A stretch of 64,000 nt of DNA from assembly GCA_029260295.1 (NCBI GenBank), contig JAJDDN010000006.1, positions 248,001 to 312,000 on the forward strand, in the 5' to 3' direction. Below are positions 25,009 to 46,362 of this stretch, in pieces. A program made the position numbers and the translations under genes. The notes under the pieces are model-generated. The model was not told where the DNA came from, ran no database searches, and saw only the letters and a program-made list of their open reading frames with translations. Position 1 is the stretch's first letter; the number at the start of each line of letters is the position of its first letter. The stretch is from Phycisphaerales bacterium (GTDB lineage: Bacteria > Planctomycetota > Phycisphaerae > Phycisphaerales > UBA1924).

Positions 25009-27597
25009 ATGAACCACTCGACTCTCCACAAGGCAATGACAAATACCGCAGCAGCGGCTGGGTTGGCAATTGTACTCGCTAGCGGCGGCGCGGTCGCCAA
25101 TGACTCGTTTGTGAACCCGGGTGTCAAAGCGATTGACGGGACGATGATCACCGGATCGGCGGCCCCAGTTGTTCTGAGCAACGCCCAGAAGCGGAACATC
25201 AGTAAAGCATTCAACTGGGAGGTTCGTGATGCCGGATTGCTCGACGGGAGCATTGTCCCTAGCGAGCTCTTTATCGAAACGATCGGGCTCAAAGAACGGA
25301 CCAACCGACTGACCGTCAAAGTCAAGAGTGAATCCCAGATGTTCCAACAGATCAGCACAGATCTGGCGGTTGCAGAAGCCACGGGTGAACAGACTCGCGC
25401 GGCTGCGGCGGTCAATGATCAGAACGGGATCGAGTTTGATGCACAGGTCCAGGTACGGATGCTCGAAGCGCGGTCGCGGCTGGCGCCGTCGCTGATCGAG
25501 GCGTTTGATGATGTTGACATGCACACGGTTCAACTGCCCGCCGGCGTGAGCGCCGAGACAATGGCCGAGGTTTTGATGCAGACCGGTGATTACGAGTTTG
25601 TTTCAATCGACTGGCTGTGCTACCCGGTTGACACGGTCCCCAACGATCCACGGGTCAACCTTCAGTGGTACCACCCTTCGACAAGAATCGACACCTACGG
25701 CGCATGGGACCTGACAACAGGCTCGGGCGAGATTATCGCGGTATGTGATACCGGCGTTGACCAGGACCATCCTGATCTGCAGGCGGCGCTTGTGTCTGGG
25801 TTTAATGCGGTGACCAATACCTCTCAAGCCGATGGTGGGATTGTTGACGACACCCTCAATGGCCACGGCACAATGGTTGCGGGATCCGCGGCGGCGATCG
25901 GGAATAACGGAGTTGGGGTGTCGGGGATCGGGTGGAACTTCGGGATCATGCCTTGCCGGGTATCAACAAACTCTGGGGGCACCGCTTTCTTGTCGGACAT
26001 CTTGCAGGCCGCCCGGTGGGGATCGGACAACGGGGCTTATGTATCGAACTGTTCATACGGCGGAGCTGAAGACAACGCCACCAATACCACCGGGATTTCA
26101 ATGCGATTTCAGGGGCATCTGCTTGTCTTTGCGTCGGGCAATGACGGGATCGGCAATCAAACAAGCGACTGGGAGAAGGTGACCATTGTTGGTGCATCAA
26201 ACTCGAGCGACAACTATGCTTCGTTCTCGAACTTTGGGGTCGGGGTTGACTGCATCGCTCCGGGCGTCAATGTCCAGACAACGACAAGAACCGGGGGCTA
26301 TGGGAATACCACCGGGACCAGTTTTTCGTCACCGATTACAGCCGGGGCACTCATGCTTATTCACTCGGCCAATCCAGCACTGAGCGCCGACGAGGTCGAG
26401 GCGGTTTTGTTGAACTCGTGTGACGACAAGCAGGCAATCGGCGAGGATATTCAAACAGGGAATGGACGGATCAATGTTGGGCGTGCGGTTGAGGATGCAA
26501 TCTTTGGCCCGTCGACAGTATCTCTTCCGTATCTCGATCAGTTCAATGATCCATCGCTTACGCTGTGGCGGAACCCGACGGGCGATGTGGCGGTTAACTC
26601 TGACGCATTGGCTGAGCCCAGCGGTCCAGATTCTTTGAATCTTTCTGGGGCGGCTCAAATTAATACTGTTGAGATCAGGGCCGCGGAGTTTTTGACTACA
26701 ACCGGGCAGATCAGTTTCTACACGCAGCACTCGGGCACCGAGGCGGGTGAGGATCTGATCGTTGAGCACACTAACATTTCTGGCACATGGCTCCCGCTGG
26801 CGGTCATCCCTTCAAGTGGTGTTGACCAGGGTGAGTTTGTGTCTCATATGATTGAGATCCCCTTGTTTGCGATTCATAACCAGCTTCAGCTACGCTTTAC
26901 AACAGCGGGTGACCAGATTGATGACAACTGGTATATCGACGATGTAGAGATCAAGTTCTTTGAGGGTAACAGCGTCCCTTGGAGCGACGACTTTGAGTCT
27001 GGAATTTCGATGAACTTCAACTGGGAATCGAGTACCGCAACCCCGAGTACTGCCGGGGACAATGAGCCATCGGGCACCCAGAGTGCGAACCTTGATAACT
27101 CTGATAGCATGACCACCAAATCCATCGATGCGACTACGGTGTTTCCGATCGTGTATGTCCAGTTCTACACGCAGCACAAGGGTGTAGAAATCGGCGAGTC
27201 GTTGTTTGTGGAATACAAGGATATCTTTGGAGCTTGGAACGAACTGGCGACCGTTGTTTCTGACGGGATTGACCATAGCGGGTTCAATTTGAATCAGCTT
27301 GAACTCCCCGTGTTTGCGTTTGGGGCTGATCTCCAGCTTCGCCTGACGGCTCTTGGTGATGAGGCCGACGACGACTGGTTTGTTGACAACATCGCGGTTA
27401 CAAAGGACTTCATTGACGAACCAGATCCATGCCCGGCGGACATGAATGGCGATGGCGCTCTGGATTTCTTTGATATTGCTGCATTCCTGAGCGCATTTAG
27501 TGCCCTCGATTCTGTGGCTGACTTTAATGGTGACGGGCAATGGGATTTCTTCGATATCGCATCGTTCCTGTCCGCGTTTAGTGCCGGGTGCCCGTAA
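25009..27597 (+). CDS. Secreted S8 subtilase with double GC-type dockerin domain (first of three)
   Basis: An 862-aa exported serine protease. Signal peptide at residues 1-32 (ending GGAVAND). A propeptide-like region of about 190 residues precedes the peptidase S8 domain, with Asp in IIAVCDTGVDQDHPDL, His in GHGTMVAGSAAA and Ser in GTSFSSPITAGA. Two related beta-sandwich modules follow (each with YTQHxGxExGExL and DDDWFVD/DDNWYID segments, MAM/jelly-roll-like). The last 55 residues hold two EF-hand loops (DMNGDGALDFFD and DFNGDGQWDFFD) and end AGCP. The ATG at 25009 has AAGGAAAG 8 bases upstream. It heads a tandem pair with the next gene, 74 bases away. Confidence 0.92.
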   Translation: MNHSTLHKAMTNTAAAAGLAIVLASGGAVANDSFVNPGVKAIDGTMITGSAAPVVLSNAQKRNISKAFNWEVRDAGLLDGSIVPSELFIETIGLKERTNRLTVKVKSESQMFQQISTDLAVAEATGEQTRAAAAVNDQNGIEFDAQVQVRMLEARSRLAPSLIEAFDDVDMHTVQLPAGVSAETMAEVLMQTGDYEFVSIDWLCYPVDTVPNDPRVNLQWYHPSTRIDTYGAWDLTTGSGEIIAVCDTGVDQDHPDLQAALVSGFNAVTNTSQADGGIVDDTLNGHGTMVAGSAAAIGNNGVGVSGIGWNFGIMPCRVSTNSGGTAFLSDILQAARWGSDNGAYVSNCSYGGAEDNATNTTGISMRFQGHLLVFASGNDGIGNQTSDWEKVTIVGASNSSDNYASFSNFGVGVDCIAPGVNVQTTTRTGGYGNTTGTSFSSPITAGALMLIHSANPALSADEVEAVLLNSCDDKQAIGEDIQTGNGRINVGRAVEDAIFGPSTVSLPYLDQFNDPSLTLWRNPTGDVAVNSDALAEPSGPDSLNLSGAAQINTVEIRAAEFLTTTGQISFYTQHSGTEAGEDLIVEHTNISGTWLPLAVIPSSGVDQGEFVSHMIEIPLFAIHNQLQLRFTTAGDQIDDNWYIDDVEIKFFEGNSVPWSDDFESGISMNFNWESSTATPSTAGDNEPSGTQSANLDNSDSMTTKSIDATTVFPIVYVQFYTQHKGVEIGESLFVEYKDIFGAWNELATVVSDGIDHSGFNLNQLELPVFAFGADLQLRLTALGDEADDDWFVDNIAVTKDFIDEPDPCPADMNGDGALDFFDIAAFLSAFSALDSVADFNGDGQWDFFDIASFLSAFSAGCP

Positions 27598-27671
27598 TAC
27601 ATCGTACTTGACAACACACTCATAGCCGAGACCTAAGACTCACCTCGGCAACTTCTTGGAGACGAAGACCT

Positions 27672-30071
27672 ATGTCAACTCATTCGAAGCTCGGTCACAC
27701 AGCATTGGTGTGTTCAATCATGTTGTGCTGTGGATTGCCCGTGGGGGTTTCCGCTGCCGCCCCAGCACATGGTTCTAAGACTCTCGGGGTTGAGAACGAG
27801 AGCAGTGCTCAGAAGGTCGACCGTGTCCGATCGGTGTTGGTTCTTCAGCCTGGGGACCAAGAAGCTATGGGCGTGGCGGTTCTTGAGCCGCTTGTCTTTA
27901 TCGAGTCCGCTCAGAACAGGGAGTTCACCGGAGAGGTTATTGTTCATGCCAAAGGTGGCCGGGCCCCGATCGCACGGGCTCGCCTTGGGGTGATGGTGAT
28001 CAAGTCGAGTGCCTTTGTCGACGAGTACACGATTGCGGTTCCTCAGGGTTTGAGTGAGGGTGAGTTTGCAGCAATGCTGATGGCTACGGGCGATTATGAG
28101 TTTGTTGAGCCCAACTGGATGCTCTTCCCGAACGAGATCCCGAACGACTCACAGTTTGGATCAAGCTGGCAGCATACCAGAATCGAGTCAGCAGCAGCAT
28201 GGGATCTGCATACCGGCCAAAGCGATATCGTGGTTGCGGTTTGCGATTCAGGAGCGGACACGAACCACCCGGATCTTCAGGACGCCCTTGTATCTGGTTT
28301 CAATGCGGTCAGTAACCTGGCCCAGGACAACGGCGGTGATGTTGAAGACATCAACGGGCACGGGACCTTTGTTTCAGGGTGCGCCGCGGCCCAGGGCAAC
28401 AACGGGACCGGGGTCGTTGGAGTCGGGTGGAACTTTGGACTCATGCCGGTTCGGGTTAGTAATCTTGCCAGCGGTAATGCCGGCTCGTTTGATATTCTTG
28501 AAGGCGCCCGTTGGGCGGTGGATAACGGGGCCAGCGCGATCAATGTCTCATACTCCGGGGGAACAAGTTCTGGTAATCAGACAACGGCCAAATACATTAT
28601 TGATCGAGGCGGCCTTCTTTTTTGGGCGTCAGGGAACGACAACTCCTTTGTTGGATTCGACGGGCAGGATCTGATTATGGTTGGATCAACAACCTCGTCT
28701 GACAACAAGTCTGGGTTCTCAAACTTTGGACCTGCTGTTGATCTTACTGCCCCGGGATCGAGTGTCCGATCGACACGGATTGGCGGGGGCTATGGGAATG
28801 GATCGGGTACGAGCTACGCTTCGCCGATCGCTGCGGGTGTAGGAGCGATGGTCTTCTCGGTCCGATCGGATCTCAGCGGTCATGATGTTCAGGACATTTT
28901 GTACTCCAGCGTTGATGATCTTGGTGCTCCGGGGCGTGACGACAACTTTGGCCGCGGAAGGGTTAATACATTCAACGCGATTCAGGTTGCTCTTGGGTAC
29001 ACACCAAGGGTCCAGCTCCCGGTTGTTGAGTCCTTTGAAAGCGGGAGCTGGATGGATCTGTTGACCGTAACATCTGGGGATGTTTCAACGGTCGTTGATG
29101 CCGACTCATCTGGCTCGGGATCAGTGCTACTTTTTAACGGAGCAGCCCAGGTCACCAGCGCCCCGCTCGGTGGTGCGATGATCCCTGCTGTGACAGGCTT
29201 GAGCTTTGGGTTGAAAGTCGCCGGGGCTGAGCCGGGAGATTCACTTCTTCTTGAGATGCTTCTGCCCGATGGAGAGTGGCAAACTCTGGTTGACTACACC
29301 GCATCAGGAACTGATACAGCGGGATACCTCCCGTTTGCAATACAACTTCCCAACGAGTCGAGGTGGCATGGGCTCAAACTCAGGGTATCGACGGATGGAT
29401 CGGCGGATTCGAGCCAGTGGCTGATCGATGATTTCAGTATTGGCATTCTCGAAGGTGTGCCTACGGCCCCGTTTGTTGACTCCTTTGAGGCTGGGGTGAT
29501 TTCACCACTGACCTGGGCAAACGATACGGGGGTCGGGGTCAGTATCTGGAACTCTACACATGCTGCTGAGTTTGTAGGTGTCCAGTCAATCGAATCACTC
29601 GATATCCCTATGTTCCAGTTTGGGATTACGCCGGGCTTTGTCCGTGTTGATGCTTGGACCGATGACAACTTGGATAACAGTGACTTTATTGATGTCGAGA
29701 TCAGGAATGTAGTTGGAACCTGGGTTCTTCTTGGCACGCTTTCGGGCGAGTCGCTGAGCCAAACTCCTGAAACCTTCGAGTTCCAGACCCCGATCACCGC
29801 GTGGGCAATCGACACCCTGCGTGTTCGGCTGACCTCGGCTGGCGAAAATCCGATCTACATCGACAATGTGTATGTTGGCCCTGACCAGTCGCCTCAGGCG
29901 TGCTCGGCCGCGGACTTTACCGCAGACGGCATGCTAGATTTCTTTGATATTTCGGCATTCCTCACCGAGTTTGAGAGTGGAAATCCGATTGCAGATCTCA
30001 GCGGGGACGGCGACTTGGACTTCTTCGATATCTCGACATTCCTGACAATCTTTGGTCAGGGCTGCCCCTGA
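27672..30071 (+). CDS. Secreted S8 subtilase with double GC-type dockerin domain (second)
   Basis: A 799-aa protein with a signal peptide (1-29, ending GVSAAAP), a propeptide and an S8 domain: Asp in VVAVCDSGADTNHPDL, His in GHGTFVSGCAAA and Ser in GTSYASPIAAGVG. Two jelly-roll-like modules follow (around VVESFESGSW and FVDSFEAGV). The end has loops DFTADGMLDFFD and DLSGDGDLDFFD and the final GQGCP. It is clearly a paralogue of the gene upstream: GVVGVGWNFGLMPVRVS here matches GVSGIGWNFGIMPCRVS there. Between them a small hairpin (27625-27630 with 27644-27649) has no T tract, so cotranscription is likely. GGAG precedes the ATG. Confidence 0.92.
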   Translation: MSTHSKLGHTALVCSIMLCCGLPVGVSAAAPAHGSKTLGVENESSAQKVDRVRSVLVLQPGDQEAMGVAVLEPLVFIESAQNREFTGEVIVHAKGGRAPIARARLGVMVIKSSAFVDEYTIAVPQGLSEGEFAAMLMATGDYEFVEPNWMLFPNEIPNDSQFGSSWQHTRIESAAAWDLHTGQSDIVVAVCDSGADTNHPDLQDALVSGFNAVSNLAQDNGGDVEDINGHGTFVSGCAAAQGNNGTGVVGVGWNFGLMPVRVSNLASGNAGSFDILEGARWAVDNGASAINVSYSGGTSSGNQTTAKYIIDRGGLLFWASGNDNSFVGFDGQDLIMVGSTTSSDNKSGFSNFGPAVDLTAPGSSVRSTRIGGGYGNGSGTSYASPIAAGVGAMVFSVRSDLSGHDVQDILYSSVDDLGAPGRDDNFGRGRVNTFNAIQVALGYTPRVQLPVVESFESGSWMDLLTVTSGDVSTVVDADSSGSGSVLLFNGAAQVTSAPLGGAMIPAVTGLSFGLKVAGAEPGDSLLLEMLLPDGEWQTLVDYTASGTDTAGYLPFAIQLPNESRWHGLKLRVSTDGSADSSQWLIDDFSIGILEGVPTAPFVDSFEAGVISPLTWANDTGVGVSIWNSTHAAEFVGVQSIESLDIPMFQFGITPGFVRVDAWTDDNLDNSDFIDVEIRNVVGTWVLLGTLSGESLSQTPETFEFQTPITAWAIDTLRVRLTSAGENPIYIDNVYVGPDQSPQACSAADFTADGMLDFFDISAFLTEFESGNPIADLSGDGDLDFFDISTFLTIFGQGCP

Positions 30072-30088
30072 TTGAGTTGGGTCATTTC

Positions 30089-30133
30089 AAAAATAAAGAC
30101 CGGGCACGGATCAGATCCGTGCCCGGCTTATAT
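30089..30133. terminator. Bidirectional terminator between convergent subtilase genes
   Basis: CCGGGCACGGAT at 30100-30111 pairs perfectly with ATCCGTGCCCGG at 30115-30126 around CAG. On the minus strand TCTTTATTTTT follows (strong); on the plus strand CTTATATTAA (weak). It serves the genes on both sides. Confidence 0.85.
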
Positions 30134-30152
30134 TAACTCTTGAGGATTCTGA

Positions 30153-33100
30153 TTATGGACAGCCGGCATTGAATGCGGCGATGAACGCGGATATATCAAA
30201 GAAGTCCAGTGCCCCGTCGTTGTTCATATCGGCTGACAAACTCCCGCTTCCAAACGCACTCAGGAATGCCGAAATATCAAAGAAGTCCAGCTCTCCATCT
30301 CCGGTAAAATCTGGGACGCAGCCTGTTGTGTCGTCGCACACAAAGCGAGTGATCTGGACATTGTCGAGGCCCGCTTCGATGACATTCTGGGTGCCTACAT
30401 CGTTGGCGATGAAGCGGAACCGCATCGTCGATGAAGCGGCAATCTCTTGGCCAACAAGAATGGTGTCGCTTCGCCATAACGGAGAGACTGATACCGAGGT
30501 CCGCAGGCGGGTCCAGTTGTTGCCCGCGTCTGTTGAGCCCTCGACGGCCCATTCATCGCCGTTGACTTCACCTGTGGCGATGTCAGAGTACCAGTAATCG
30601 AAGGAGAACTCTCCGCCGCTGGAGATGTCGTAGATCGGGGATGTCAGGGTTGTAGTGCCGTTGTCTACATCGGAGTTGCAGGAGTTACCCGCGTCGTTGT
30701 CGGTGACCCAGCATTGTCCCGAGCCGTCGGAGTCGCTGGCTGGCGCGCCTCTCTCTGAACAGTTTACGGGCATGCCTCGGGTCCACTCGCCATCTGTGGT
30801 ATCGCTTGAAACGGACCATCCGTTGTCGGTCTGGAAGTTGTCAGTCAGGACAACTTTGACTTCACCGATCTCGGTGTGGGTCGGGCCGCTGGCACCGAGC
30901 GGTGGCGAGAATACCGAACCAGCGACTACGCCGTTTGCGGAAATATAGTACTCGACAACCTGCCCGCAATCGGCTCCGGGAACGGTCCCTGAGAAGGAGC
31001 CGTCGCCGTTGTCGATCATCGGGACTGAGATGAATCCACCGGGGGCGAAGTGGTAGTTGAGCATAACTGAACCAGGAATCATTGTGTCAACTCCTTCGTT
31101 AACGAATCCGAGTACATCGATCGGGGTGCCGGGCAGAACAAGCGCGGGCGCCGACTCTGCCAGTGAGATCGATAGAAGGCCTTCGCCGAGATCAAGTGAT
31201 GAGGTGAGCGCGAATGATTGAGGGCCGTCTGAGATCGAAGTACCAAGCACCTGGATCTGCCATGTGCCCGAGGCCGGATTTTCGACCATGACCTGCTCAA
31301 TATTGTTGAGGTGATCTTCTTGCGTACGGACAGCCCCGGCACTTGGGCTGGCGGGGTTGAGCGTCCATGGATAGTGGCGGGTGCCGCTTGGATCGGTCAC
31401 GATCAAGTCTAGATCGTTCACGAGAGCGGGCGACACATTTGGTGCACCTGCGGGATCATCCCAAGCGATTGTGACGCGGAAGGCGGGATCACCCGGATTG
31501 ACATTGACTGTGAAGGTCGATGATGTTCCTTGGTCGACTGTTTCTTCTTTGAAGTTTCCGGTGCGTAAGAAATCGATGCTGTTGACCGCGCGGATCGAGC
31601 CATAGCCGCTCTGGAAATCTGGACCGGCGTTGAGGATGTCTACCGACCCCTCGATCAAGATGGCTTTCATGAGTTGATTGGATGGGTCGCCCCAAGCCGG
31701 GAACTGCGCCCTGAAATCTTGGAGGATCAAGGCCCCGACGCCAGCGGCGGTTGGCGAGGCCATGGAGGTTCCGCACAAAGTGATGTACTGGGTGTTTGAG
31801 CCATCGCCCGTTGAAGTCACGCCGTTGTCTGAGCCGCTCTGACAACCGGGAGCTGATACAACGGGGCGGATACGGCCATCATCGGATGGGCCCCAACTCG
31901 AGAAGCTGGTCATCGAGTCGTTGTTTGAGTTGACGGCACCGATGGAGATTGCGTTTTTGTTGTTCCCGGGAGGTGCTGTGGTGCCATAGCCTGTGCCACA
32001 GCGGCCGCTGCCTCGTTCGTTGCCCGCCGCCCAGAAGATGGTGATGGGATCTCCGAGTGAACCCCGGATGACATTATCGATGACGCCGGCGGTGATGCCG
32101 TAGTCACCTTGCCAGGTACAGGGGTAGCCGTTCTGCGCGACATTGGAGCCGATGGAGTTGTTTGAAATGGATGCTCCAAGGGACAAGGCAAGCGAGTAGT
32201 CGGATTCAAGATCACCCGGATCGGTGTACAGGAACCCCGCGCTCAATCCGCCCGGAACTTCGAAGCCTGCGCCGAGGATATTGACACCGGGCGCCATGCC
32301 TCGATTATTGATGTTGGTGCTCCCGTCACCACCGATCGTGCCGGCGACATGGGTTGCGTGGAAGTTCACTGGGGTCGAATCAATGTTTGTAGCGCGGCCC
32401 GAAAAATCATTGTGCGTCGTGCGGACCGAACCCCCGTCGTAGACAAGAACGGTGACGCCTGTGCCATCGAGCGAATACGGGGCCGACTGCGCGGTGTTGG
32501 CTTGTGTGAGAACGCGGTTCGAAGAGTTTGTTGCTTCTAGCGGCGGGAGCGGCGGCTCGATCCACTGAACGCGACCGTCATCTGCGAGCTTCTTGAGCTG
32601 CTGGTAGGGCATCTCGACGACCAGTGTGTTCATAGACATCACGACCGAGCGGATTGTGCCTTTGTATGATTTGAGCAGCTTGTCCATCTCTGGGGAGGCG
32701 ACATCGACATCGGGGTGCATCATGACATAGGCCGCGACGGTGTAGTTCTCTGTGGTGCCACTGATTGCTTTAACGGTGTCGCTGCCGACGATGGCCCATG
32801 ATGGCATCTCGTCGTTCTGGATTAACGGGTGAAGTTTGTGGCCGCGGGTGATCTGGCCTGCATCGATTAGGCGTGTCTCGAGGACAACGGTATCGGCATT
32901 GACACTGACGCGGGCGAAGTAGGTGTTGTCACCTACCGGACTGAGTAGTTCAAGACCATCGTCCTTGAATGCTTGGCGCGATGCTTTGTCTGGTGTTTCA
33001 GAGAGCTGGACCAAAACATACCCGCCGCTGCTGGCCGGGGTGTTGAGGACGGCGGCGGATTGCAGCACCGACTTTGGTGATTGGTGGCTCAGCCGAGCGT

Positions 33101-36360: not shown

Positions 36361-39300
36361 TTACAAACAATCCCCGCTAAAGATCTGCAGGAACAGTGCT
36401 ATATCAAAGAAATCAAAGTCGCCGTCGCCATTGATATCTGATCTGACATCATCCGAACTGAAGAAGTTTAGGAACTGTACTATATCAAAGAAGTCAAGCA
36501 CATTGTCCCCTGTCAGATCCGCCACACAAGTGAGGACCACGAAAGCCCGGTCCGGTTCGTAGATCACCCGGTACACTAAACCGATCCCGGGTTCAGGAAC
36601 GATTACCGAGGCAAACTCTCCGGACACCGATCCTCCAGAGACGATGTCCCAGGTGTCTCCAAACATAGGGGAGTATCCGTCGTCGAGATTCACCGTCAGT
36701 GTTCCATCAAGACTCACGACTGATCCGTTCCCAATAGTCAGCCGATCAAACTCACCGGCGAGCAATCCGCCCAGGTCCGCGATCATGCCTGAAGTCGCTG
36801 AGAAGTTCAGGGTGTCAACATCAATCTGCCGCTGGGTCGAACTCGGATCGAATGTCCCGTCCATGTTCATTTCGCCGACCACCAACCCAGAACCGGTAAT
36901 GGTCTGGCCCGCGCCGATTGTCCCGATGAACCCCTGGTCATTGAGAATCTGTGCATCACCAAAGTTCCCGGCCAACTCCATATCAATCGTGCCCGTCCCG
37001 TCGATTGTTGTTGCCGAAAGGAAGCGGAGATGGGCGTTGAACACGGCGTCATCGGAGTTCACTAAAATTACACCGTTGTTGGTTAGTGGCCCCGCCAGCC
37101 CGACAATCCCACCCTGGCCACGAATGCCAAGTGTTCCAGCATTGGTCATATTCGAGAGCGTAGCTGTGCCGTTGGTGACCATGTCCACGATGCCCGCTCC
37201 CGATGAATCAAAGGTGCCGCCATCGAACGAGGCTCCATTGATCAACGCAAGCACACCGTCGTCTGAGCGATACACACCACTCCCGGTGTGATTCCCGCGG
37301 AGTTCGAGCGAGAAAACCGGATCGTTCCCGTTGATCGTGCCATTGTTGATGATGGTTCCACCACTGCGGCCATCAACCTGCCCCGAGCCCTGAATAGTCT
37401 GGCTCGCCCCAATGGTACCGAGGAACACGCCATCGGTGAACAACTGCGCATCACCCGAATTCCCGGCACTCACCATCGTGACCGTTCCCGATCCGTTGAT
37501 GGCAGTGTCGGCCGCGAATCGGAGGTGTGCATTGAATACCGCTCCGTCTGAGTTGAGCGTGAGATTCCCGTCATTGGTCATCGGCCCAGCGAGTGTGATC
37601 GACCCGCCCTGCCCGCGGACACCCATCTCTCCAACATTGGTCACATCTGAGAGCGTCGCAATGCCGTTGGTTGTTGCGTCCACGATCCCGGCGCCTGTGG
37701 AATCAAAGATCCCGTCCTGCAACACAAGCCCGTTTCCGAGCGAGAGGATCCCGTCATCGGAGCGGTACACCCCAACACCATTGCCGTTGTGGTTCCCACG
37801 CAACTGGAGCGAGATCGCAGAAGCCTTCCCGACCGCTGCGTGATTTCCGTTGATGACACCATTGTTGATGATGGTCCCGCCCGATCGGCCATCGATCATC
37901 CCGCTGCCATTGATTATTTGATTGGCACCGATCGTTCCGCTAAATATTCCATTGGTATAGAGCTGAGCATCACCGAGATCGCCGGTACTCACCATATGGA
38001 TGGTGCCCAAACCACTAATCGAAGTCGAGGTATCAAACCTCAGATGAGCATTGAAGATGTTGGTGTTTGAGTTGATCGTAAGGGCGCCATCGTTGGTCAG
38101 TTGACCTGTAAGACTGATCACGCCCCCCTCGCCAACGATCCCCATCTGCCCAAGATTCGTCACATTTGAAATCGTGGAGATCCCGTTGTGATCCGTCCGA
38201 ACGATCCCGGTTCCCGATGAATCAAAGGTGCCGGCGTCAAGATTCAGCCCGTTGCGAAGGAGCAGAGTCCCGTTGTCGGAGCGGTATATCCCGCCGCCGT
38301 TATGGTTCCCCGCAAGCCCGAGCCCGAAGGCCGCATCGTTGCCGTTGATGGTGCCCAGGTTTACGATCGTGCCCCCGCTTGCACCGGTGATCAGCCCGCT
38401 GCCTTCAACGGTTTGATCTACACCGATGGTGCCATTAAACGCCCCGTTGGTCAGGATCTGCGCATCGCCAATATCTCCCGCCGCACTTTTCATCAGCACA
38501 TTCCCGGTCCCGCTGACTGTGGCCGCGGTTTGGAATCGGACATGGGCGTTGAATATAGCGTTGTCGGAGTTGATGGTGATTGTGCCGTTGTTCACGACAT
38601 CACCATTGAGCAGCAAGAACCAAGCCTGCCCAGGGATATCGAGATCACCAAAGTTTGAAATAGCCCCGATCGTCGCGTTGTTCTGGACCTGTATATTCCC
38701 GCCATTAATCGAGATCAGTTGCCCGCCTGTCGTTACCGAGCCATTGCCCAACAGCAGCGTCCCGCTATCGGCACCCGCGCGACCTGTAGCTGTCTGATTC
38801 AGGGTTCCGGCCAGTCGCAATCCTGCTCCCGCTGGATCGTCAGCAATGATGTCGCCCGAGTTGTTCATGATTCCCGAGATCTGGCCCGAACCGTGAATCG
38901 TGTGCCCGTTGGCATGCGAAACTGTGAATCCGTTGGGCACGATTTGCGCATCGCCTGGTTCATTCAGTGTTGTCAAGAGAATCGAGCCGCTTCCCGAAAT
39001 CGTGGCATCAACACCAAAGGACAGGTGCGTATTGAAAATAGTCGACGGAACATTAATAGAAATGGATCCGTCGTTGAATAGGTCACCATTCAATGTCGTT
39101 GTGCTGCTCCCGCCAATCTCAAGAACCGCCAGCGGGTTTGTGACAGTCAGCGATCCATAGTTAAAGTGGTTGGTCACACTTACGAGATACGAACCAGCCA
39201 GCCCGATCACAGCGTCCTCGCCGATGGCGTTGGGAATATTGGCCCCGGCCCAGTTGCCAGCAAGATTCCAGTTCCCGTCAACCGCCGCAGCCCAGTCAAT

Positions 39301-39372
39301 TACCTGCGCTCCAGCACTGGTCCCAGCCAAGGCCACGATTGCACACGCCGACAAACTCAGATTCCGTTTCAT
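36361..39372 (-). CDS. Large repetitive beta-rich secreted protein with atypical GC-type dockerin end
   Basis: The ATG at 39372, after AGGAGAAACC, gives 1003 aa. Signal peptide 1-24 (ending TSAGAQ). The N-terminus WAAAVDGNWNLAGNW resembles the start of autotransporter-like passenger domains. The body is four to five repeats of about 160-173 residues, each with FNAHLRF, GDAQ, GTIG, a GSG...GG.I.N.G.INGN segment, GNH, YRSDDG and FDSSGAGIV, consistent with a beta-helix. There is no beta-barrel at the end; instead the dockerin loops are DLTGDNVLDFFD and DINGDGDFDFFD. The last residues are SGDCL rather than GCP, alone among the cluster. Probably a surface adhesin or scaffold component (inference). 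Confidence 0.9.
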   Translation of the reverse strand: MKRNLSLSACAIVALAGTSAGAQVIDWAAAVDGNWNLAGNWAGANIPNAIGEDAVIGLAGSYLVSVTNHFNYGSLTVTNPLAVLEIGGSSTTTLNGDLFNDGSISINVPSTIFNTHLSFGVDATISGSGSILLTTLNEPGDAQIVPNGFTVSHANGHTIHGSGQISGIMNNSGDIIADDPAGAGLRLAGTLNQTATGRAGADSGTLLLGNGSVTTGGQLISINGGNIQVQNNATIGAISNFGDLDIPGQAWFLLLNGDVVNNGTITINSDNAIFNAHVRFQTAATVSGTGNVLMKSAAGDIGDAQILTNGAFNGTIGVDQTVEGSGLITGASGGTIVNLGTINGNDAAFGLGLAGNHNGGGIYRSDNGTLLLRNGLNLDAGTFDSSGTGIVRTDHNGISTISNVTNLGQMGIVGEGGVISLTGQLTNDGALTINSNTNIFNAHLRFDTSTSISGLGTIHMVSTGDLGDAQLYTNGIFSGTIGANQIINGSGMIDGRSGGTIINNGVINGNHAAVGKASAISLQLRGNHNGNGVGVYRSDDGILSLGNGLVLQDGIFDSTGAGIVDATTNGIATLSDVTNVGEMGVRGQGGSITLAGPMTNDGNLTLNSDGAVFNAHLRFAADTAINGSGTVTMVSAGNSGDAQLFTDGVFLGTIGASQTIQGSGQVDGRSGGTIINNGTINGNDPVFSLELRGNHTGSGVYRSDDGVLALINGASFDGGTFDSSGAGIVDMVTNGTATLSNMTNAGTLGIRGQGGIVGLAGPLTNNGVILVNSDDAVFNAHLRFLSATTIDGTGTIDMELAGNFGDAQILNDQGFIGTIGAGQTITGSGLVVGEMNMDGTFDPSSTQRQIDVDTLNFSATSGMIADLGGLLAGEFDRLTIGNGSVVSLDGTLTVNLDDGYSPMFGDTWDIVSGGSVSGEFASVIVPEPGIGLVYRVIYEPDRAFVVLTCVADLTGDNVLDFFDIVQFLNFFSSDDVRSDINGDGDFDFFDIALFLQIFSGDCL
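36890..39040. repeat. Tandem coding repeats of about 480-520 bp in the repetitive surface protein
   Basis: The codons for FNAHLRF-like segments recur near 37030, 37530, 38050, 38545 and 39030 on the minus strand, a period of about 480-520 bases. Each unit also carries GDAQ, GTIG, YRSDDG and FDSSG. The copies have diverged, with the first (N-terminal) copy least alike. Confidence 0.85.
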
Positions 39373-39515
39373 TGGTTTCTCCTGTACAAAAACCAAAACC
39401 ACATAATGTCCAAGTATGCAGAATAGCATACTCGATCCGAATTCCAAAGACCAAAATGAGATATACAACCTAGTTTACAGTTCAAATACAACCCTCTCAG
39501 TTTCTAAACCGGATT

Positions 39516-39583: not shown

Positions 39584-40939
39584 TTATGGGCAGCCGGCAG
39601 AGAACGCGGTCAAGAACGCGGCGATATCGAAGAAATCAAACTGGCCGTCGCCGGTAAAATCCGCACTGAGATCCCCACCGGAGAACGCGGTCAGAAACGC
39701 GGCAATATCAAAGAAGTCGAGTGCCCCGTCGCCGTTCATGTCTGGAAGACACGCGCTCTCGCACGCATCAGAGACCCCGTTGCCGTCGTCATCTGGCGCG
39801 GCCGGGTTCACGATTTTGTACACCACACCCGCAAAGAGGTCGGAGATGTACAACTCGCCGTCTTCGGCTTCCCCGAATGACGAGAGTCCGAAACCGAAGT
39901 TGAACTCGGTTGATCGGGCGTAGCCATTATCTTGGTCGAGTGTCCAGACATTGCCACCGCAGTAATCACCGAAGAAGTAGAGCCCTTGGAATGCTTCGCC
40001 AAGCTCGCAGCCACGGTAGACATAGCCACCGGTGACCGAACAGTTCCCGCCGGAATGGTTGTAGACATGCTGGGGATCGGTCCAGCCCGTTGCGCCACAT
40101 GACAATCCTGTGGCAACCAGGCCTTCGCGGCAGCGCCAGCCGTAGTTGTTCCCGCCGGCGTTACCGACATTGTGATTAACCTCTTCCCATGCGTTCTGGC
40201 CGACATCGGCGATCCACATGTCGCCGTTGTCACGGTCGAAGCTTGTCCGCCACGGGTTACGCAGGCCGTAGTGCCAGATCTCGGCGCGTGTTCCCGCGTC
40301 GCCGTCGTCGGCCCACGGGTTACCGGCAGGGATCCCGTATTGCAATCCGGCGTCCTGGGTGTCGACATCGATGCGGAGCATCTTGCCGAGCAGTTGGCTG
40401 AGGTTGGCCGCCCGGTTTCCTGGATCGTTACCCGAGCCGCCGTCGCCCATACCAATGTAAAGGAAACCGTCAGGCCCAAAGCCGATCCAGCCACCGTTGT
40501 GGTTGGAGAATGGCTGGCTGATGGTCATCAAGATCCGGGCTGAGTTGAGATTGGCTGTATCTGGATTGCCCACCGAGACCTGATATTCAACAACGCGGGT
40601 TGCCCCACCGCTGCCGGTGTAGTTCACATAGAACTTGCCGTTGTTTTCGTAGTCTGGATGGAACGCGAGGCCAAGGAGTCCGCGTTCGTCACCGCCGCTG
40701 TTGCCGCCGGTTACGAGTGGATCGATATCCATAAATGGCGTGGCCAACAGATTGCCGTCTGCGTCGATGATACGGACCGCACCCTCTTGTTCGATGACAA
40801 ACATACGGTTTGAACCGTCGCCGGCATGAGTCATAAACACCGGACGGTCAATGCCGTTGGCGTACACCTGTCTGGCCAACTGACCATGAGCACTGGCTGC
40901 TCCGACGGCGAGAATACATGTACACAAAAGATGCTTCAT
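39584..40939 (-). CDS. PQQ-dependent sugar dehydrogenase-like beta-propeller with double GC-type dockerin domain
   Basis: A 451-aa secreted protein. Signal peptide 1-20 (HGQ). The body is a six-bladed beta-propeller of the glucose/sorbosone dehydrogenase (GSDH) family: RPVFMTHAGDGSNRMFVIEQEG cut short, GLLGLAFHPDYENNG, HNGGWIGFGPDGFLYIGMGDGG, GKMLRIDVD, EIWHYGLRNPWR, DMWIADVGQ and WEEVN. The His in the HNGGWIGF motif is the expected catalytic base and the Arg-Asn-Pro-Trp-Arg segment binds PQQ in characterised enzymes. It would oxidise aldose-type sugars with PQQ (family knowledge). The end has DMNGDGALDFFD and DFTGDGQFDFFD and SAGCP. GGAGACC precedes the ATG. Neighbours include the diheme peroxidase and multiheme genes. 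Confidence 0.92.
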   Translation of the reverse strand: MKHLLCTCILAVGAASAHGQLARQVYANGIDRPVFMTHAGDGSNRMFVIEQEGAVRIIDADGNLLATPFMDIDPLVTGGNSGGDERGLLGLAFHPDYENNGKFYVNYTGSGGATRVVEYQVSVGNPDTANLNSARILMTISQPFSNHNGGWIGFGPDGFLYIGMGDGGSGNDPGNRAANLSQLLGKMLRIDVDTQDAGLQYGIPAGNPWADDGDAGTRAEIWHYGLRNPWRTSFDRDNGDMWIADVGQNAWEEVNHNVGNAGGNNYGWRCREGLVATGLSCGATGWTDPQHVYNHSGGNCSVTGGYVYRGCELGEAFQGLYFFGDYCGGNVWTLDQDNGYARSTEFNFGFGLSSFGEAEDGELYISDLFAGVVYKIVNPAAPDDDGNGVSDACESACLPDMNGDGALDFFDIAAFLTAFSGGDLSADFTGDGQFDFFDIAAFLTAFSAGCP

Positions 40940-41129: not shown

Positions 41130-43046
41130 TTATGGGCAGCCCTGTCCAAACGCAGACAGGAATGTGGATATATCGAAGAAATCCAACTGTCCATCACCAC
41201 TTAGGTCCGCAGATGAATGACCAGATGAGAATGCCCCGAGGAAATTCGCAATATCAAAGAAGTCCGATAAGCCGTCGCCGTTGAAGTCCGCGGCACAAGC
41301 AACCAAACACGGGACCGCTTCGGTGCAGAACAAATCCAACTGAGCAGCAGGCGAACGGACAAACCCATCACCCCCGCCCTTAATCCCGGCAGGGTCAGAG
41401 ATGACCCACTGCATGTAAATCCGCTGCCCATCAATCGCCGTGTTGTTGGCGATCGGGTAGGCGAGTGTTCCGAACCCTCCGCCGCTGCCCATACCAGCGA
41501 GCGTGATCGGGCCGATCAGTTGATCAGCAGGCACCACACCACCAACCGGTGGATCCTGTGAAACCGCGACCCATGCTTGGGCTCCGCCGAGCGCGAAATC
41601 AACACCGATCTTAAAATCATCGTTGCCCAGGTTCGGGGGGATCACCGCGATCATCTTGGGGACAAACCCGCCCGAGCCAATATCGCCGCTCCCGACGATT
41701 TCCGGATTGGGAACAACCCGCTCGGCGTAGAGGCCGGGACGATCAAACGGGAATGTCTCGTTTGCCACTCGTGGATCCGTGAGGGCGTTGACCAAGAAAT
41801 CCTTGACAGCGACCTCGCCTGATTCACTAAACAAAATCGGTGATCGAACGAGGAAGTGAGCGTTGTCAAAGAACGGCTGCCGGCCGTTGCGGTGCCCATA
41901 GAAATCAAAGATGTCATCAATATCACTGAGCCCGCCGGTGTGCATCAACCGGTTCCTCAGAGCAACATTCCGTATAGACGGGGTCTTAAACTTCCCACGG
42001 TCTGCACTCAATCCCGTCACCCCTTGGCGGCCGATGTCTTCGAACACAGGGCGCACCCCGTCAACCATGAGGTCAAAGTTGCTGAAGGTCGGAGCCGCGT
42101 GGCAGAAACCGCACGCCGAGGCCTGGAACAGGCTAAACCCGGCCTTTTGTTCGAATGTCATCGCACCCTCATCGCCGTCATTCCACAGGTCCCAGGGGGT
42201 TTGGTTGGGGATCAATGTACGCTGGTAGGTACCCATCGCAAAGGCAATCCGTACTGCAGTAATATCTGGATCGCCGAATGCGAGTTCAAAGAGCTCGGCG
42301 TAGGTCGGATCGACAGCGATGGCCGCGAGCATGTCTGGCGGGATTGAATCCGAAAGCGCCAGCGGACGCACACGATCGAGCTTGTCGCGGACCTGGTCCC
42401 ATGTCCGCCCGGCATGTCCCATTTCAACATCGCTCATGATCGGGCCGGTGGCCTGGATTTCAAGACCGGCTACCCCAGATTGGAATAACAGCTCGCCTGT
42501 TTCAGGGTCTATAAAGTTCAGTTCCGCTCGCCCGTCCCAGAACAGACTCCCCGCGAACATCCCCATCATGTTGGACTGCGCCACGCGGCCGGTCACCTGT
42601 ACATCAAGACCGAATGAATCGCTCTGCTGGTACACATCCATCTCGTCCATCCGGATCACACCCGGAGAGCCGAGCACATCGTCAGCGGTCAAGAACGATT
42701 CGTCGAATCCCGGATGCAGGCCCGGGCGGGGGTCAGCCCCACCACTGGCAGGAATATGACAGGTGCCACACGAAATCGTGCTATCGCTCGAAAGTTGTTC
42801 ATCCCAGAACAGGATCTTTCCCAGCACACGCTTGGATTCTGAGTATGGGTTCTGCATCGGGGTGCTGGGTTCCCACAAAGAAGCCCCCGCCTGGGGCAGT
42901 GGGACATCGAATGCCTCCATACCCGCCTTGGCTTGATCGATCCCGAACTGGTCTTGAGCGTGCACAGGAGTTGACAGCAAAAATGCCATGATCCCGAACC
43001 GAATCGGCGTTGCGATACCCTTCAGTGAAGATGTGTTCATCATCAT
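41130..43046 (-). CDS. Diheme cytochrome c peroxidase/MauG-like protein with double GC-type dockerin domain
   Basis: The start at 43046 (AGGAG 6 bases upstream; three successive Met codons) gives 638 aa. Signal peptide 1-31 (TPVHAQD). Two heme c sites, CGTCH (93-97) and CGFCH (312-316), sit in the two domains of the CcpA/MauG fold, with LGKILFWDEQLSSDSTISCG before the first and RGKFKTPSIRNVALRNRLMHTGG after the second, as in bacterial diheme peroxidases. A beta-rich C-terminal region of about 130 residues comes before loops DFNGDGLSDFFD and DLSGDGQLDFFD and the final GQGCP. It would reduce peroxide or oxidise a protein partner with electrons from another cytochrome (inference). Confidence 0.93.
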   Translation of the reverse strand: MMMNTSSLKGIATPIRFGIMAFLLSTPVHAQDQFGIDQAKAGMEAFDVPLPQAGASLWEPSTPMQNPYSESKRVLGKILFWDEQLSSDSTISCGTCHIPASGGADPRPGLHPGFDESFLTADDVLGSPGVIRMDEMDVYQQSDSFGLDVQVTGRVAQSNMMGMFAGSLFWDGRAELNFIDPETGELLFQSGVAGLEIQATGPIMSDVEMGHAGRTWDQVRDKLDRVRPLALSDSIPPDMLAAIAVDPTYAELFELAFGDPDITAVRIAFAMGTYQRTLIPNQTPWDLWNDGDEGAMTFEQKAGFSLFQASACGFCHAAPTFSNFDLMVDGVRPVFEDIGRQGVTGLSADRGKFKTPSIRNVALRNRLMHTGGLSDIDDIFDFYGHRNGRQPFFDNAHFLVRSPILFSESGEVAVKDFLVNALTDPRVANETFPFDRPGLYAERVVPNPEIVGSGDIGSGGFVPKMIAVIPPNLGNDDFKIGVDFALGGAQAWVAVSQDPPVGGVVPADQLIGPITLAGMGSGGGFGTLAYPIANNTAIDGQRIYMQWVISDPAGIKGGGDGFVRSPAAQLDLFCTEAVPCLVACAADFNGDGLSDFFDIANFLGAFSSGHSSADLSGDGQLDFFDISTFLSAFGQGCP

Positions 43047-43135
43047 CTGATACTCCTGTGCGATTGTCACTGGACACCGATTCTGCGCCTCTACACAAGG
43101 CCGAGAATGCACCAGCACTTATTCGATCGTAGGAG

Positions 43136-44125
43136 CTATGGACACCCCTGCCCGAACGCCGTCAAGAACGCTGATATATCGAAGAAATCAAACTGGCCAT
43201 CACCTGTGAAGTCTGCGATTGGGTCTTGGCTTGAAAATGCGGTCAGGAATGTTGAAATATCAAAGAAATCAAGCACGCCGTCCATGGTGAAATCCGCGGG
43301 GCATGATGCGACGCACTCGGTGGTCCCCGGTCCAAACCAGTCGCCAGCAACCAAATCGCATGTTTGCAGATCCAGTTGGAGACACGCCCCGGTTGCTGGG
43401 ATCTCGCAGGCTCCAAGACACTGGACCTCTGCACATGTAGATCCGGGGCCGCTCCATACACCACCGAGCAACCCCGCCTCTTCTTCGGTCATCCCGTCAA
43501 TACACCCGCCGTTCTGGAGGCACACCGAGCCAACAAGACCGCCGGTGCAATCAACGATGACGCGAATGATCCAATCTCCGGTCACGCCGAGAGATTCGGC
43601 TGATCGCCATTGGCTGCCGTTGACCTTGACCGTGTTTTTGCCTGGGGTGATACCGGAGTCATCAAAGAGGATGCTTGGGCCAGAAACGGTAGAGCTGTTA
43701 AAGAACTTAAGCGAAACAACGAACTCTTCGCCCGCTGTGACCGGGATATCGATCGGGATTGTCTGGTTTTCGTCGGTAAAACGGAACTCGTTGAGCCCGC
43801 CGTCTTGAAGGGCCGGGCCGAGTAGTTCGCTTTTGATTGGGCCAGCATTTGGAAATGTCCCAGATTCATATACGATGATCGAATCTTCCAAGGAAGTTTG
43901 TGCCCCGCCTGCCAGCGATCGCCAAAATACCTGGATCGCTACTATTGAGCCGTCGCATGGCGATGTTAACCAGACAGCCGCCTCTTCGCCGGCAATAAAG
44001 CAGGGACAGATACTCGCATTATCTCCGGCGGTAAGACTGTCGTTCTGAAGAACCACCTCGTCACCAAGGACACTCATAGCACTCAGCCCTATCAGGGCAC
44101 ACATCGAAGCAAACTTGATAGGCAT
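43136..44125 (-). CDS. Secreted Cys-rich protein with double GC-type dockerin domain
   Basis: A 329-aa protein with a signal peptide (1-21, ending VLGDE). Residues 25-190 form a beta-sandwich-like module (VVLQNDSLTAGDNASICPC, then FVVSLKFFNSSTVSGPSILF). Next come two short Cys-rich repeats (GSVCLQNGGCIDGMTEEE...GVWSGPGSTCAEVQC and GACLQLDLQTCDL...GDWFGPGTTECVASC), each with Cys and a GxWxGPGTxC motif, resembling the repeats found before dockerins in other Planctomycetes secreted proteins. Loops DFTMDGVLDFFD and DFTGDGQFDFFD then end GQGCP. It is only 89 bases from the start of the peroxidase gene on the same strand. Confidence 0.88.
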   Translation of the reverse strand: MPIKFASMCALIGLSAMSVLGDEVVLQNDSLTAGDNASICPCFIAGEEAAVWLTSPCDGSIVAIQVFWRSLAGGAQTSLEDSIIVYESGTFPNAGPIKSELLGPALQDGGLNEFRFTDENQTIPIDIPVTAGEEFVVSLKFFNSSTVSGPSILFDDSGITPGKNTVKVNGSQWRSAESLGVTGDWIIRVIVDCTGGLVGSVCLQNGGCIDGMTEEEAGLLGGVWSGPGSTCAEVQCLGACEIPATGACLQLDLQTCDLVAGDWFGPGTTECVASCPADFTMDGVLDFFDISTFLTAFSSQDPIADFTGDGQFDFFDISAFLTAFGQGCP

Positions 44126-44405
44126 AACAAATACTCACTCTCATGGTTTCATACAAACACAACCAACGCGCCATTTAGGCGTACTACCCCATGCCCACCA
44201 TACCAGAATCGGTGTCAAAAGCGAGAACAATTCCAACATTTCCAGATTGACAACATACAAATATCGGACCCAAGAAGCCGGTTCAAAGGCCCATTGCTGT
44301 TTGCCAGCAAGCTATGACTCCAGACTGCTATCGCGCCAAGTGTGATACACTTAGCATTCACTCACAGAATCGATTCCCAAAATTCCAATCAATACACAAA
44401 ACATC

Positions 44406-44996
44406 ATGCCACAAACAACTCCGCCAGAAACCATCCCATTTTTCATTGTTGAAGACATCGCAACCATGGAGGCACTTGCCAATCCTGTAAGGTGGGAGAT
44501 CCTCGAAGCCGCGGCAGCTCTCGGGGACTGCTCTGCCGCTGACATTGCTGAATACACGGCCCGCGCACGCACCTCACTCTACCCCCATATCCAGGACCTT
44601 GTTGAGTGCGGGCTGATCTACGAGACGGACACCCGCCTAATGGGCAAACGGTACGAACAACTCTACCGCCCCAAGGCGTTCATGGTCGGCACCCGGTTCA
44701 ATCAGGACGATCCAAAGAATCTTGACTACCACACCACCTATTCAAACGCTCTAGCCCGGCTCCTATCTCGAAAGTACAACCGCGCATCAAACGAACCCGG
44801 CGCCAACCCACGCACCGATAAACGAAATCACCACTGTGGAAGCCACAGCATCTGGGTCGATGACAAACAACTCGCCAAACTCAATACAATGATCGATGAA
44901 CTCTGGGATTTTTGTGAGAGTTCACGCCCCGCCGAAGGAAAGAAGCTTTTGCATCTCGGGCTCTTCCTCAGCCGGCACATCCCCAAATCCAAATAG
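44406..44996 (+). CDS. Winged-helix (ArsR-like) transcriptional regulator
   Basis: A 196-aa protein whose residues 15-80 form a winged helix: MEALANPVRWEILEAAAAL is the typical ArsR/GntR-like opening helix and SAADIAEYTARARTSLYPHIQDLVE the recognition part. The remainder (about 85-196) is a unique sensing or dimer domain with a His/Cys segment (KRNHHCGSHSIWV) that could bind metal (inference). It is the only plus-strand gene in this part of the minus-strand secretome cluster and is divergent from the gene at 43136. The ATG lacks a clear ribosome site. It is a plausible regulator of the dockerin genes, with no direct evidence. Confidence 0.75.
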   Translation: MPQTTPPETIPFFIVEDIATMEALANPVRWEILEAAAALGDCSAADIAEYTARARTSLYPHIQDLVECGLIYETDTRLMGKRYEQLYRPKAFMVGTRFNQDDPKNLDYHTTYSNALARLLSRKYNRASNEPGANPRTDKRNHHCGSHSIWVDDKQLAKLNTMIDELWDFCESSRPAEGKKLLHLGLFLSRHIPKSK

Positions 44997-45015
44997 ACAT
45001 CGGCAGGCAGCCGAA

Positions 45016-46362
45016 CTATGGGCATCCTTTGGTGAATGCTGATAGAAACGCGCTGATATCAAAGAAATCAAACTCGCCATCGCCGGTAAAGTCCGCGACA
45101 GGATCGCTAGAACCAAACGCTGTCAGGAATGTGGATATATCGAAAAAGTCCAGTGCGCCATCGCCGTTGATGTCGGCGACACAACCCATCACGGGGGTTG
45201 CGACAAACACGCCGATGGTCCCGTTGCGTAAGAACGCGCTAAAGGCAACCTGGCCCGCGTCGTTGATGTCAATTACGCCACTGGTCACTTGCTTGCCATC
45301 GAGCCCGCCGAAGTCAATCCCCATCGCAAGTGGACCCAGATCGGTGTCAATGACCTGGTCCCACCCGACAAGCTTGACCAGACTGTCGCCATCGCCGACC
45401 CAGATCGCGGTTGAGTCATTCGAAACATCGCTTGCCCGAAAGGCGACCCAGCCGTTTGAACTGATTACTGGTGGAAAGTTGGCGAATGAATTATTCTGAA
45501 TATCGGCGTTATCGCCGCTTGCGATCATCGTTGTTGCTGACCCGTCCCAGTGATTGACTTCCCAGATCGAACCGGATGTCCGGCGTGCCGAGAACGCGAC
45601 ATCGCCGTTCTGCGCGATCGCTGTGGAGTTGACAACCGCGTTCCACATCGACCCGGTCTCGGCCACTGTTGTCGGGACGCCCATCGCGTCAAACCGGACT
45701 ACGCGTCGACTCGGCCCGCTTGCCGGGATTGTGCTCGTCACAATCTGGCGCGCATCATTCATCTCTGGCGAGAAGATGAATGTGTAGTTCCCTGAGAAGG
45801 TGGTGGCGATCGTTGTTTGGGTACGGATCCCACCAACAAAGTGATCTGTCACAAGTTTATCTTCAGAACCGAAGTCCCCGCGGTAACACACCGCACCATC
45901 GCTCGCAAGGGTCACCGAACTTACACTCGACACGCCCTCGGACCCACCGCCTGAGAAGTTCTCAAGCAGCACCCCGGAGGTGTCATAGAGCTGCGCCCCA
46001 TCGCCAAAGCTTCCAAGCTCGATAGCGATCATCCCGTTTCGAAGATCCAGCGTTGTGGACCAGATTGGATCGACCGGTGCCGGTGCTGTAAAGATCATGC
46101 CACCGATACCGCCCTGTCCATAGAACACACCTTCTTGTCCGCCAAGAACCACACGGATCGCCACATCCCCATCATCGCCAATCGAAACATACTGCGAAGA
46201 CAACAGACTGGGAAATGGCAGGTTAAACGGAACAGTGGCCTCGTCAAGGCTTGATCTGCACTGGAGTTCAAAGGTCCACTCGGTTGGAACCTCGGCCTGG
46301 GCCACACCAACAAGACAAACAACAAAGGCCAAACCACAAGCAGGGGCATTCAAACGGATCAT
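45016..46362 (-). CDS. Secreted NxxGxVAF-repeat protein with double GC-type dockerin domain
   Basis: A 448-aa protein with a signal peptide (1-24, ending GVAQAE) and GGAGAGATCC before the ATG. The body has short beta repeats in which a polar turn precedes VAF or a like strand: SIGDDGDVAIRVV, LASDGAVCYRG, IAQNGDVAFSARR, ISSNGWVAFRA and INDAGQVAFSAF. Planctomycetes carry many such propeller-like repeat proteins of unknown function. The end has loops DINGDGALDFFD and DFTGDGEFDFFD and KGCP. It is the last member of the cluster before housekeeping genes resume. Confidence 0.88.
   Translation of the reverse strand: MIRLNAPACGLAFVVCLVGVAQAEVPTEWTFELQCRSSLDEATVPFNLPFPSLLSSQYVSIGDDGDVAIRVVLGGQEGVFYGQGGIGGMIFTAPAPVDPIWSTTLDLRNGMIAIELGSFGDGAQLYDTSGVLLENFSGGGSEGVSSVSSVTLASDGAVCYRGDFGSEDKLVTDHFVGGIRTQTTIATTFSGNYTFIFSPEMNDARQIVTSTIPASGPSRRVVRFDAMGVPTTVAETGSMWNAVVNSTAIAQNGDVAFSARRTSGSIWEVNHWDGSATTMIASGDNADIQNNSFANFPPVISSNGWVAFRASDVSNDSTAIWVGDGDSLVKLVGWDQVIDTDLGPLAMGIDFGGLDGKQVTSGVIDINDAGQVAFSAFLRNGTIGVFVATPVMGCVADINGDGALDFFDISTFLTAFGSSDPVADFTGDGEFDFFDISAFLSAFTKGCP

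Follow-up and report, generated by a model that had tools for sequence, protein, structure and literature searches.

GC-type dockerins as a genome-wide tag on exported proteins of a Phycisphaerales bacterium without a detected cohesin

The window is a 64,000-nucleotide stretch from the genome of a Phycisphaerales bacterium (G000; 2.91 Mb, 8 contigs, 92% complete; G, C and L numbers designate genomes, contigs and loci throughout). Between positions 25009 and 46362 it carries a cluster of ten genes whose protein products end in the same tail, a module of 54 residues of the form C-x-x-D-...-DFFDI..FL..F-linker-AD-...-DFFDI..FL..F-x-x-GC-P. By profile match, the tail is an already named domain family, the GC-type dockerin (NCBIfam NF041540, dockerin_GC): ten of ten window tails exceed the curated cut-off of 29 over the whole model, at 32.3-51.5 bits. 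Nothing sets the tails apart at family level; they represent a 54-residue form of the model, which has 67 positions, and carry FF at loop positions 10-11.

A sequence-only reading had placed ten such tails here, and all are present. DFFDI is invariant in 20 of 20 loops of the ten-tail alignment, and in 21 of 21 with a single-loop protein elsewhere in the window. The last Cys is penultimate in all ten tails, within GC in nine and DC in one, while the Cys before loop 1 is aligned in nine and lies one residue earlier in the tenth (29898-30068). The proposed loop form DxNGDGxxDFFD holds for DFFD; DxNGDG is not constant, and the true consensus is D-x-[NTS]-[GNAM]-D-[GNA]-x-x-D-F-F-D-I. The DNA pattern GAYTTYTTYGAYAT has 193 sites in the genome against 0 for a reversed-pattern control, and the repeated DFFDI motif is not due to chance. 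Among the first 100 of these sites, three (C1:29834, C2:19425, C4:1652) are in frames that appear by eye unrelated to dockerins. The tagged cores, which had been called otherwise unrelated, are indeed very different exported proteins, except that three of the ten are S8 subtilases (Table 1).

Table 1. Tagged genes of the window and the evidence for their cores and tails.
Position (strand)	Product	Core evidence	Tail
24955..27597 (+)	S8 subtilase with signal peptide, likely start 25009	Peptidase_S8 9.4e-39	GC-type dockerin 27430-27594, NF041540 44.2 bits
27672..30071 (+)	S8 subtilase	Peptidase_S8 1.3e-40	GC-type dockerin 29901-30068, NF041540 39.8 bits
30153..33227 (-)	S8 subtilase	Peptidase_S8 1.4e-33	GC-type dockerin 30156-30320, NF041540 44.0 bits
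33334..35259 (-)	Multihaem cytochrome-like protein	CxxCH motifs; MtrC/MtrF-like match 1.3e-05, under gathering	GC-type dockerin 33337-33501, NF041540 46.1 bits
35454..36290 (-)	Small secreted protein, core unassigned		GC-type dockerin 35457-35621, NF041540 51.5 bits (top of the ten)
36361..39468 (-)	Long repetitive secreted protein		GC-type dockerin 36364-36528, NF041540 32.3 bits; ends in DCL, not GCP
39584..40939 (-)	Glucose/sorbosone dehydrogenase-type propeller	GSDH 1.6e-38	GC-type dockerin 39587-39751, NF041540 45.6 bits
41130..43118 (-)	Di-haem peroxidase (MauG-like)	CCP_MauG 1e-30	GC-type dockerin 41133-41297, NF041540 39.3 bits
43136..44125 (-)	Secreted protein, core unassigned		GC-type dockerin 43139-43303, NF041540 47.2 bits
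45016..46362 (-)	DUF7453 / NxxGxxAF choice-of-anchor repeat protein	TIGR05002 51.3 bits (cut-off 50)	GC-type dockerin 45019-45183, NF041540 44.5 bits
11521..12357 (-)	Secreted protein with single-loop tail (half-dockerin)	ORF and sequence; no family in a Pfam scan at E<=0.001	11524-11610, both Cys; NF041540 17.6 bits, below cut-off, second half of model only

A second half-dockerin that keeps both Cys lies at G000:C2:25700 (L043), and non-duplicated half-dockerins are mentioned for Ruminococcus flavefaciens in PMC8063739.

The letters GC presumably refer to the Cys of the C-terminal GC motif, and a literature search for the exact phrase "GC-type dockerin" found no paper that contains it. None of the ten window proteins reaches the gathering threshold of the Pfam type I dockerin (PF00404, 22.9 bits), the sole one listed scoring 13.4 bits; the first tail of A3 scores 18.7 bits, and among 49 other tagged proteins there is one match at 2.4e-07. 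The AlphaFold2 model of the tail is a compact dockerin-type fold (pLDDT 95.3), as the sequence-only reading had expected, with two predicted calcium-type loop-helix repeats packed as in solved dockerins, and the 17 PDB entries that VIA-align lists are all dockerins. The two loops would each bind calcium. Type I dockerins of clostridial cellulosomes share this predicted fold, the two calcium-type repeats and lineage-specific residues at positions 10-11, whereas the tails here fall under the Pfam gathering threshold and carry a putative Cys clasp.

The tag is not local to the cluster. A search of the genome with NF041540 returns 105 matches at E<=0.001, 98 of them over the cut-off, on seven of the eight contigs, which rules out confinement to the cluster. 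The match at C8:582049 probably does not belong to the family, and the search misses at least one tail with two loops (C4:17633). The 54-residue form accounts for 86 of the 105 tails, the last Cys is exactly penultimate in 91, and 81 end in GCP. The cluster is the densest 21.4 kb of the genome, with 10 of the 105 matches (random mean 4.5, maximum 7 in 500 trials), and 38 neighbouring tags lie less than 3.5 kb apart, where 12.3 would be expected and 2000 random placements never gave more than 25. The tags therefore cluster along the genome. Six other chosen 20-kb stretches contain none of the 105 matches.

Among 121 genomes of the order, with up to 45 candidates scored per genome, 80 have an NF041540 match and 73 a match over the cut-off. 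The window's family (f1) supplies 36 of the 80 and none of the 20 no-match genomes listed (of 41). Full counts in 12 chosen genomes run from 2 to 93. Across the phylum, 15 of 246 genomes drawn have a match, seven over the cut-off; five of the 15 are f1 genomes that match up to the number scored, and the other ten have at most four matches each. The named tag-bearing relatives are mostly Phycisphaerales metagenome bins. G012, a single contig that is 99% complete, has 223 first-look GC-dockerin candidates, and the 45 of these that were scored all match. In the two tails seen of the congeneric G107 (L234, L235), both repeats have a longer calcium loop (AGNPDGTPDG-type); F occupies position 10 in four of four loops and position 11 in two of four. 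G083 (L340-L343) has a distinct tail, approximately DFNxNGVFPEDxDVxDFFxVLAGG twice plus extra Cys, which NF041540 mostly misses (4 matches against 37 pattern sites).

A single tag sits on very different exported cores throughout the genome, as domain scans of 104 tagged proteins in two sets (55 and 49; top 25 families listed per set) demonstrate. The families listed include LVIVD and FG-GAP propellers, peptidases of families S8, M12, M64, M14, M10 and M43, MauG peroxidases, MtrC-like cytochromes, an endonuclease and amylase-like proteins (one per set). "Choice-of-anchor B" proteins number 7 of 55 and 4 of 49, a name that we take to denote a variable anchor. By a loose heuristic of our own, a signal-peptide-like start is present in 101 of 105 tagged proteins against 9 of 23 other window genes. 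Cellulosomes place plant-polysaccharide enzymes on cohesin scaffolds, whereas the recognised cores here are peptidases, propellers and cytochromes, with one amylase-like protein in each set and mostly no glycoside hydrolases, and no cohesin was detected.

The tag also departs from the extreme C terminus, the constant place of a PEP-CTERM-like sorting signal. In a metalloprotease-like protein of the same genome (HELGHNLGFHHG; L331:4002-5369), it follows the signal peptide directly (NF041540 32.0 bits, residues 43-95), and in G142 a copy is flanked by a cohesin-like core and an additional domain (38.3 bits, residues 226-281 of 709); both copies keep both Cys. Because these N-terminal and internal copies exist, the tag is better described as a module than as a C-terminal sorting signal. 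PEP-CTERM/exosortase tags likewise mark many exported proteins with one tag, and one core family (A4, below) carries either end. However, the tag here is a predicted folded module, and the PEP-CTERM set of the genome is separate from it.

The two Cys residues are conserved as a pair. They were counted across nine genomes in 183 tails, of which 104 come from the own genome and 79 from the others, with the rows for C8:582049 and the wrongly oriented L257 dropped and C2:25700 scored by hand. Both are present in 169 tails, neither in seven, the first only in two and the last only in five (Fisher p = 2e-8), so that 176 of the 183 tails either keep the pair or lack it altogether. One last-only row (L281) is mis-scored, its first Cys falling just beyond the counted stretch. 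This coupling supports a clasp and is not mere decay, because Cys-less copies can keep intact loops (C8:16790, L308, L309). Of the disulfide clasp put forward by the earlier reading, coupled conservation is observed, and the two Cys would, judging from the sequences, close the domain by a disulfide. An intramolecular clasp is reported for a dockerin associated with an S8 protease in PMC12484212; a disulfide version is what we propose here.

Each genome tends to have its own characteristic residues at loop positions 10, 11, 14 and 18, as well as at 13 and 16, sharply so in some genomes and loosely in others. The comparison set 86 canonical own tails beside the best-scoring ten tails of each of eight other genomes (nine for G065). 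Of the 172 loops of the own tails, 161 have FF at positions 10-11, and FF is the commonest pair in none of the eight others: AA leads in G080 (11/20), TA and IA in G065 (5 each of 18), AD in G101 (19/20), TQ in G098 (12/20, with TR 5/20), FA in G022 (14/20) and GA in both G105 (10/20) and G069 (12/20), while G066 is mixed (IE 5/20). Information on genome above shuffles is 1.57 bits at position 14, 1.52 at 10, 1.21 at 13, 1.15 at 18 and 1.10 at both 11 and 16. Positions 13 and 16 look like core positions, and position 12 is invariant, though it is also the alignment anchor. PMC8063739 gives positions 10 and 11 as specificity determinants for cohesin, and PMC3413522 assigns a putative role in recognition to residues 10, 11, 17, 18 and 22. 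In 61 f1 genomes, a DNA pattern for [DN]FFD[IVM] has 209 sites in the own genome, 200 in G040, 184 in G092, 134 in G142, 112 in G130, 37 in G083 and at most 10 in every other; the counts for G040 and G130 are raw pattern counts in any register. An FF code in G083 was rejected, because the four sites read there belong to a different tail and lie in a different register.

This uniformity is held by selection. The synonymous codons of 27 near-invariant positions in the 86 tails were compared with those in the cores of the same proteins, and at 21 of the 27 their diversity is close to that of the cores (Asp homozygosity 0.50-0.54 against 0.50). Across 3655 pairs, tail DNA identity reaches at most 87%, with a mean of 62%. 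FF is fixed about as strongly as the calcium ligands, while relatives carry other residues there. The first Phe is encoded by TTC in 162 of 167 cases; FF pairs in the cores show the same TTC-first preference (101 of 118), so a Phe-Phe codon-pair effect accounts for part of this bias. Measured against synonymous change the tails are old, and since synonymous codons are near saturation, tail uniformity reflects selection and not recent copying. A common partner in each genome would be the simplest cause of such uniformity.

The cohesin-like partner that the sequence-only reading anticipated was not detected in the own genome: the Pfam cohesin (PF00963) has 0 matches at E<=10, though remote cohesins can be missed, and a profile of ten planctomycete cohesins (A2) has 0 at E<=1. 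Among the 36 f1 genomes with GC dockerins, a Pfam cohesin occurs only in G027, marginally, and the single-contig G012 has none. Some relatives have cohesins and the genome is 92% complete, and therefore a diverged cohesin could be missed here. In G155, a 733-aa protein combines a cohesin match with a terminal GC-type dockerin over the cut-off (32.6 bits), whereas a 2835-aa protein has a GC tail without a cohesin match; the cohesin protein of G128 lacks an NF041540 match at E<=0.01. Several cohesin proteins of relatives carry HYR-like domains. PMC6461901 proposes a "planctosome" for freshwater planctomycetes, in which cohesin/dockerin proteins are linked to peptidases and the adaptor has HYR-like domains. 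The cohesin proteins of relatives resemble this system, while the own genome differs in having no cohesin adaptor detected (E<=1), as does f1 in the scarcity of its cohesins. Judged by the profile matches, the general receptor does not seem to be a cohesin, although it may be a diverged one.

The neighbourhoods of the tags were clustered as 569 ORFs (own loci, window and 79 named loci), and among the top 40 groups examined no untagged group recurs widely. Profiles of cohesins, A4 and the candidate family described below find nothing among these ORFs at E<=1. Two small exported-looking groups do recur: the L144 group, with four ORFs from three genomes, and a PEP-CTERM pair found in two genomes (L145, L165). 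In the latter bins, the PEP-CTERM gene lies just downstream of a tagged gene (L145:3281-4025 (-), L165:3293-4025 (-)), and own L392 (G000:C8:572841-573189), similar by eye, lies about 120 bases from a tag; the neighbour pair is thus conserved, by eye for the own copy. The own genome has 38 PEP-CTERM matches at E<=1, 13 over the cut-off, and when the 30 that have a locus are aligned by hhalign to the profiles of cohesin and A4, the best probability is 4.7%. Weak PEP-CTERM-like ends, both under the cut-off, occur at window positions 105-170 (+) (15.0 bits) and at G000:C6:247454-247522 (14.6 bits), just outside the window's left edge. The sole clear untagged gene within the cluster (44406-44996 (+)) encodes a winged-helix-like regulator (HVO_A0114-like, 26.9 bits; cut-off 27.6), and its relatives adjoin tags in two named bins (L147, L135).

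Two families were considered as receptors. The candidate at G000:C2:160320-161190 is a tandem PEP-CTERM pair that looks cohesin-like by eye. Its family has strong matches only in the own genome and G092 and marginal ones in two more of the 61 f1 genomes, and hhalign gives 0.5-1.3% (six sequences) against 0.07-0.33% for four control families; the pair is kept as a lead only. A4 is a cohesin-like family missed by Pfam, which hhalign aligns to the cohesin profile at 69% probability over 97 columns. Small proteins at L336:10435-11043 (-), L338:6343-6966 (+) and L339:12895-13500 (-) have a Pfam-unrecognised cohesin-like core with a PEP-CTERM-like end, adjoin genes with cohesin matches and are possibly anchoring cohesins. 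The A4 end is PEP-CTERM-like in three genomes (by eye; one sub-threshold Pfam match), and the A4 core bears a GC-type dockerin instead in G142 and, by eye, in G158. As a universal receptor A4 was rejected: it is near full-length in 4 of 61 genomes, and the other listed matches cover the C-terminal part, mostly the PEP-CTERM end.

The favoured model, which is somewhat better than an even bet, is a clasped dockerin on about 100 exported proteins that binds one lineage-specific surface receptor. The two calcium-loop/helix repeats would be closed as one unit by a disulfide from the Cys before loop 1 to the penultimate Cys. The tag would keep the exported proteins together in a single location, most probably the cell surface, where either repeat would bind the same receptor through a surface formed by positions 10 and 11 together with 14 and 18 on the next helix. 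The common partner claimed by the sequence-only reading gains support by inference from recognition residues that are genome-characteristic and under selection, although no receptor was found. Such a receptor would be a single surface-located protein not recognised as a cohesin. It is plausible, if short of an even chance, that the dockerin has been kept while each genome has its own non-cohesin receptor for 100 or more exported proteins, the contact surface having changed in concert with all tags between genera. The first candidates would be A4 or PEP-CTERM proteins that evolve fast, the tandem pair above among them.

Several observations weigh against the favoured model beyond the missing receptor. 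Cohesins do occur in relatives: the Pfam family is present in 9 of 121 order genomes, the sole f1 case (G027) being under the cut-off, and A2 matches at E<1e-6 in 6 of 61 f1 genomes. The code is not cleanly one per genome, with GA common to G105 and G069, G066 mixed and G065 and G080 variable; the tails of other genomes were the best-scoring ones, not random; and positions 13, 16 and 20 look buried yet also differ by genome. Foldseek gives no match to the tail model at E<=0.001, and its matches at E<=10 are two dockerin and 23 calmodulin-type entries. Fourteen tails were scored as Cys-deficient, and since seven of these (one mis-scored) lack only one Cys, the clasp is not essential in every copy. 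Six of the 27 positions (four Phe, two Gly) have codon diversity below expectation, and the partner may be a polymer instead of a protein.

The strongest alternative, though unlikely at about one chance in a few, is an ordinary cohesin-dockerin pair whose true cohesin is too diverged to detect or lies in the missing 8% of the genome. The G155 protein and the alignment of A4 to the cohesin profile favour it, whereas the empty searches of the own genome and of the nearly complete G012, with G027 alone marginal by Pfam among the f1 genomes that have GC dockerins, argue against it. Calcium modules can bind glycans, and a tail that binds a polymer (lipopolysaccharide or exopolysaccharide) or another tail would fit the lack of a detected protein partner. 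This reading is improbable given that contact positions differ between genera and are mostly uniform within a genome, as a matched protein partner predicts, although a species-specific glycan or self-association could also produce such a pattern. Slightly less probable again is a C-terminal sorting signal, comparable to PEP-CTERM or type IX secretion tails, that is read by machinery for secretion or anchoring. The regular penultimate Cys and GCP end and the NCBI protein name "domain-anchored" suggest it, but the N-terminal and internal copies, the separate PEP-CTERM set and the predicted dockerin fold point elsewhere. If one tail had recently been copied or spread by gene conversion, in the absence of any common partner, this would explain why tails are alike within a genome and why six positions have reduced codon diversity. 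Such an origin is largely refuted by the core-like codons at the other 21 positions and by the low identity of even the closest pair, and is very improbable.

A dockerin is one half of a very tight pair. Members of f1 carry up to about 100 or more dockerins per genome, while the other half is recognisable in few of the genomes tested. Here a known family serves as a genome-wide tag, its contact code is characteristic of the genome and under selection, and no cohesin was detected. If the code is true, no cross-binding is expected between tags of species that differ in code, and the surface of the receptor protein should vary with the code. Such tags would offer protein engineering a set of mutually exclusive, possibly disulfide-stabilised binding modules. 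If true, the model would also explain how exported proteases, cytochromes and propellers are organised in these planctomycetes.

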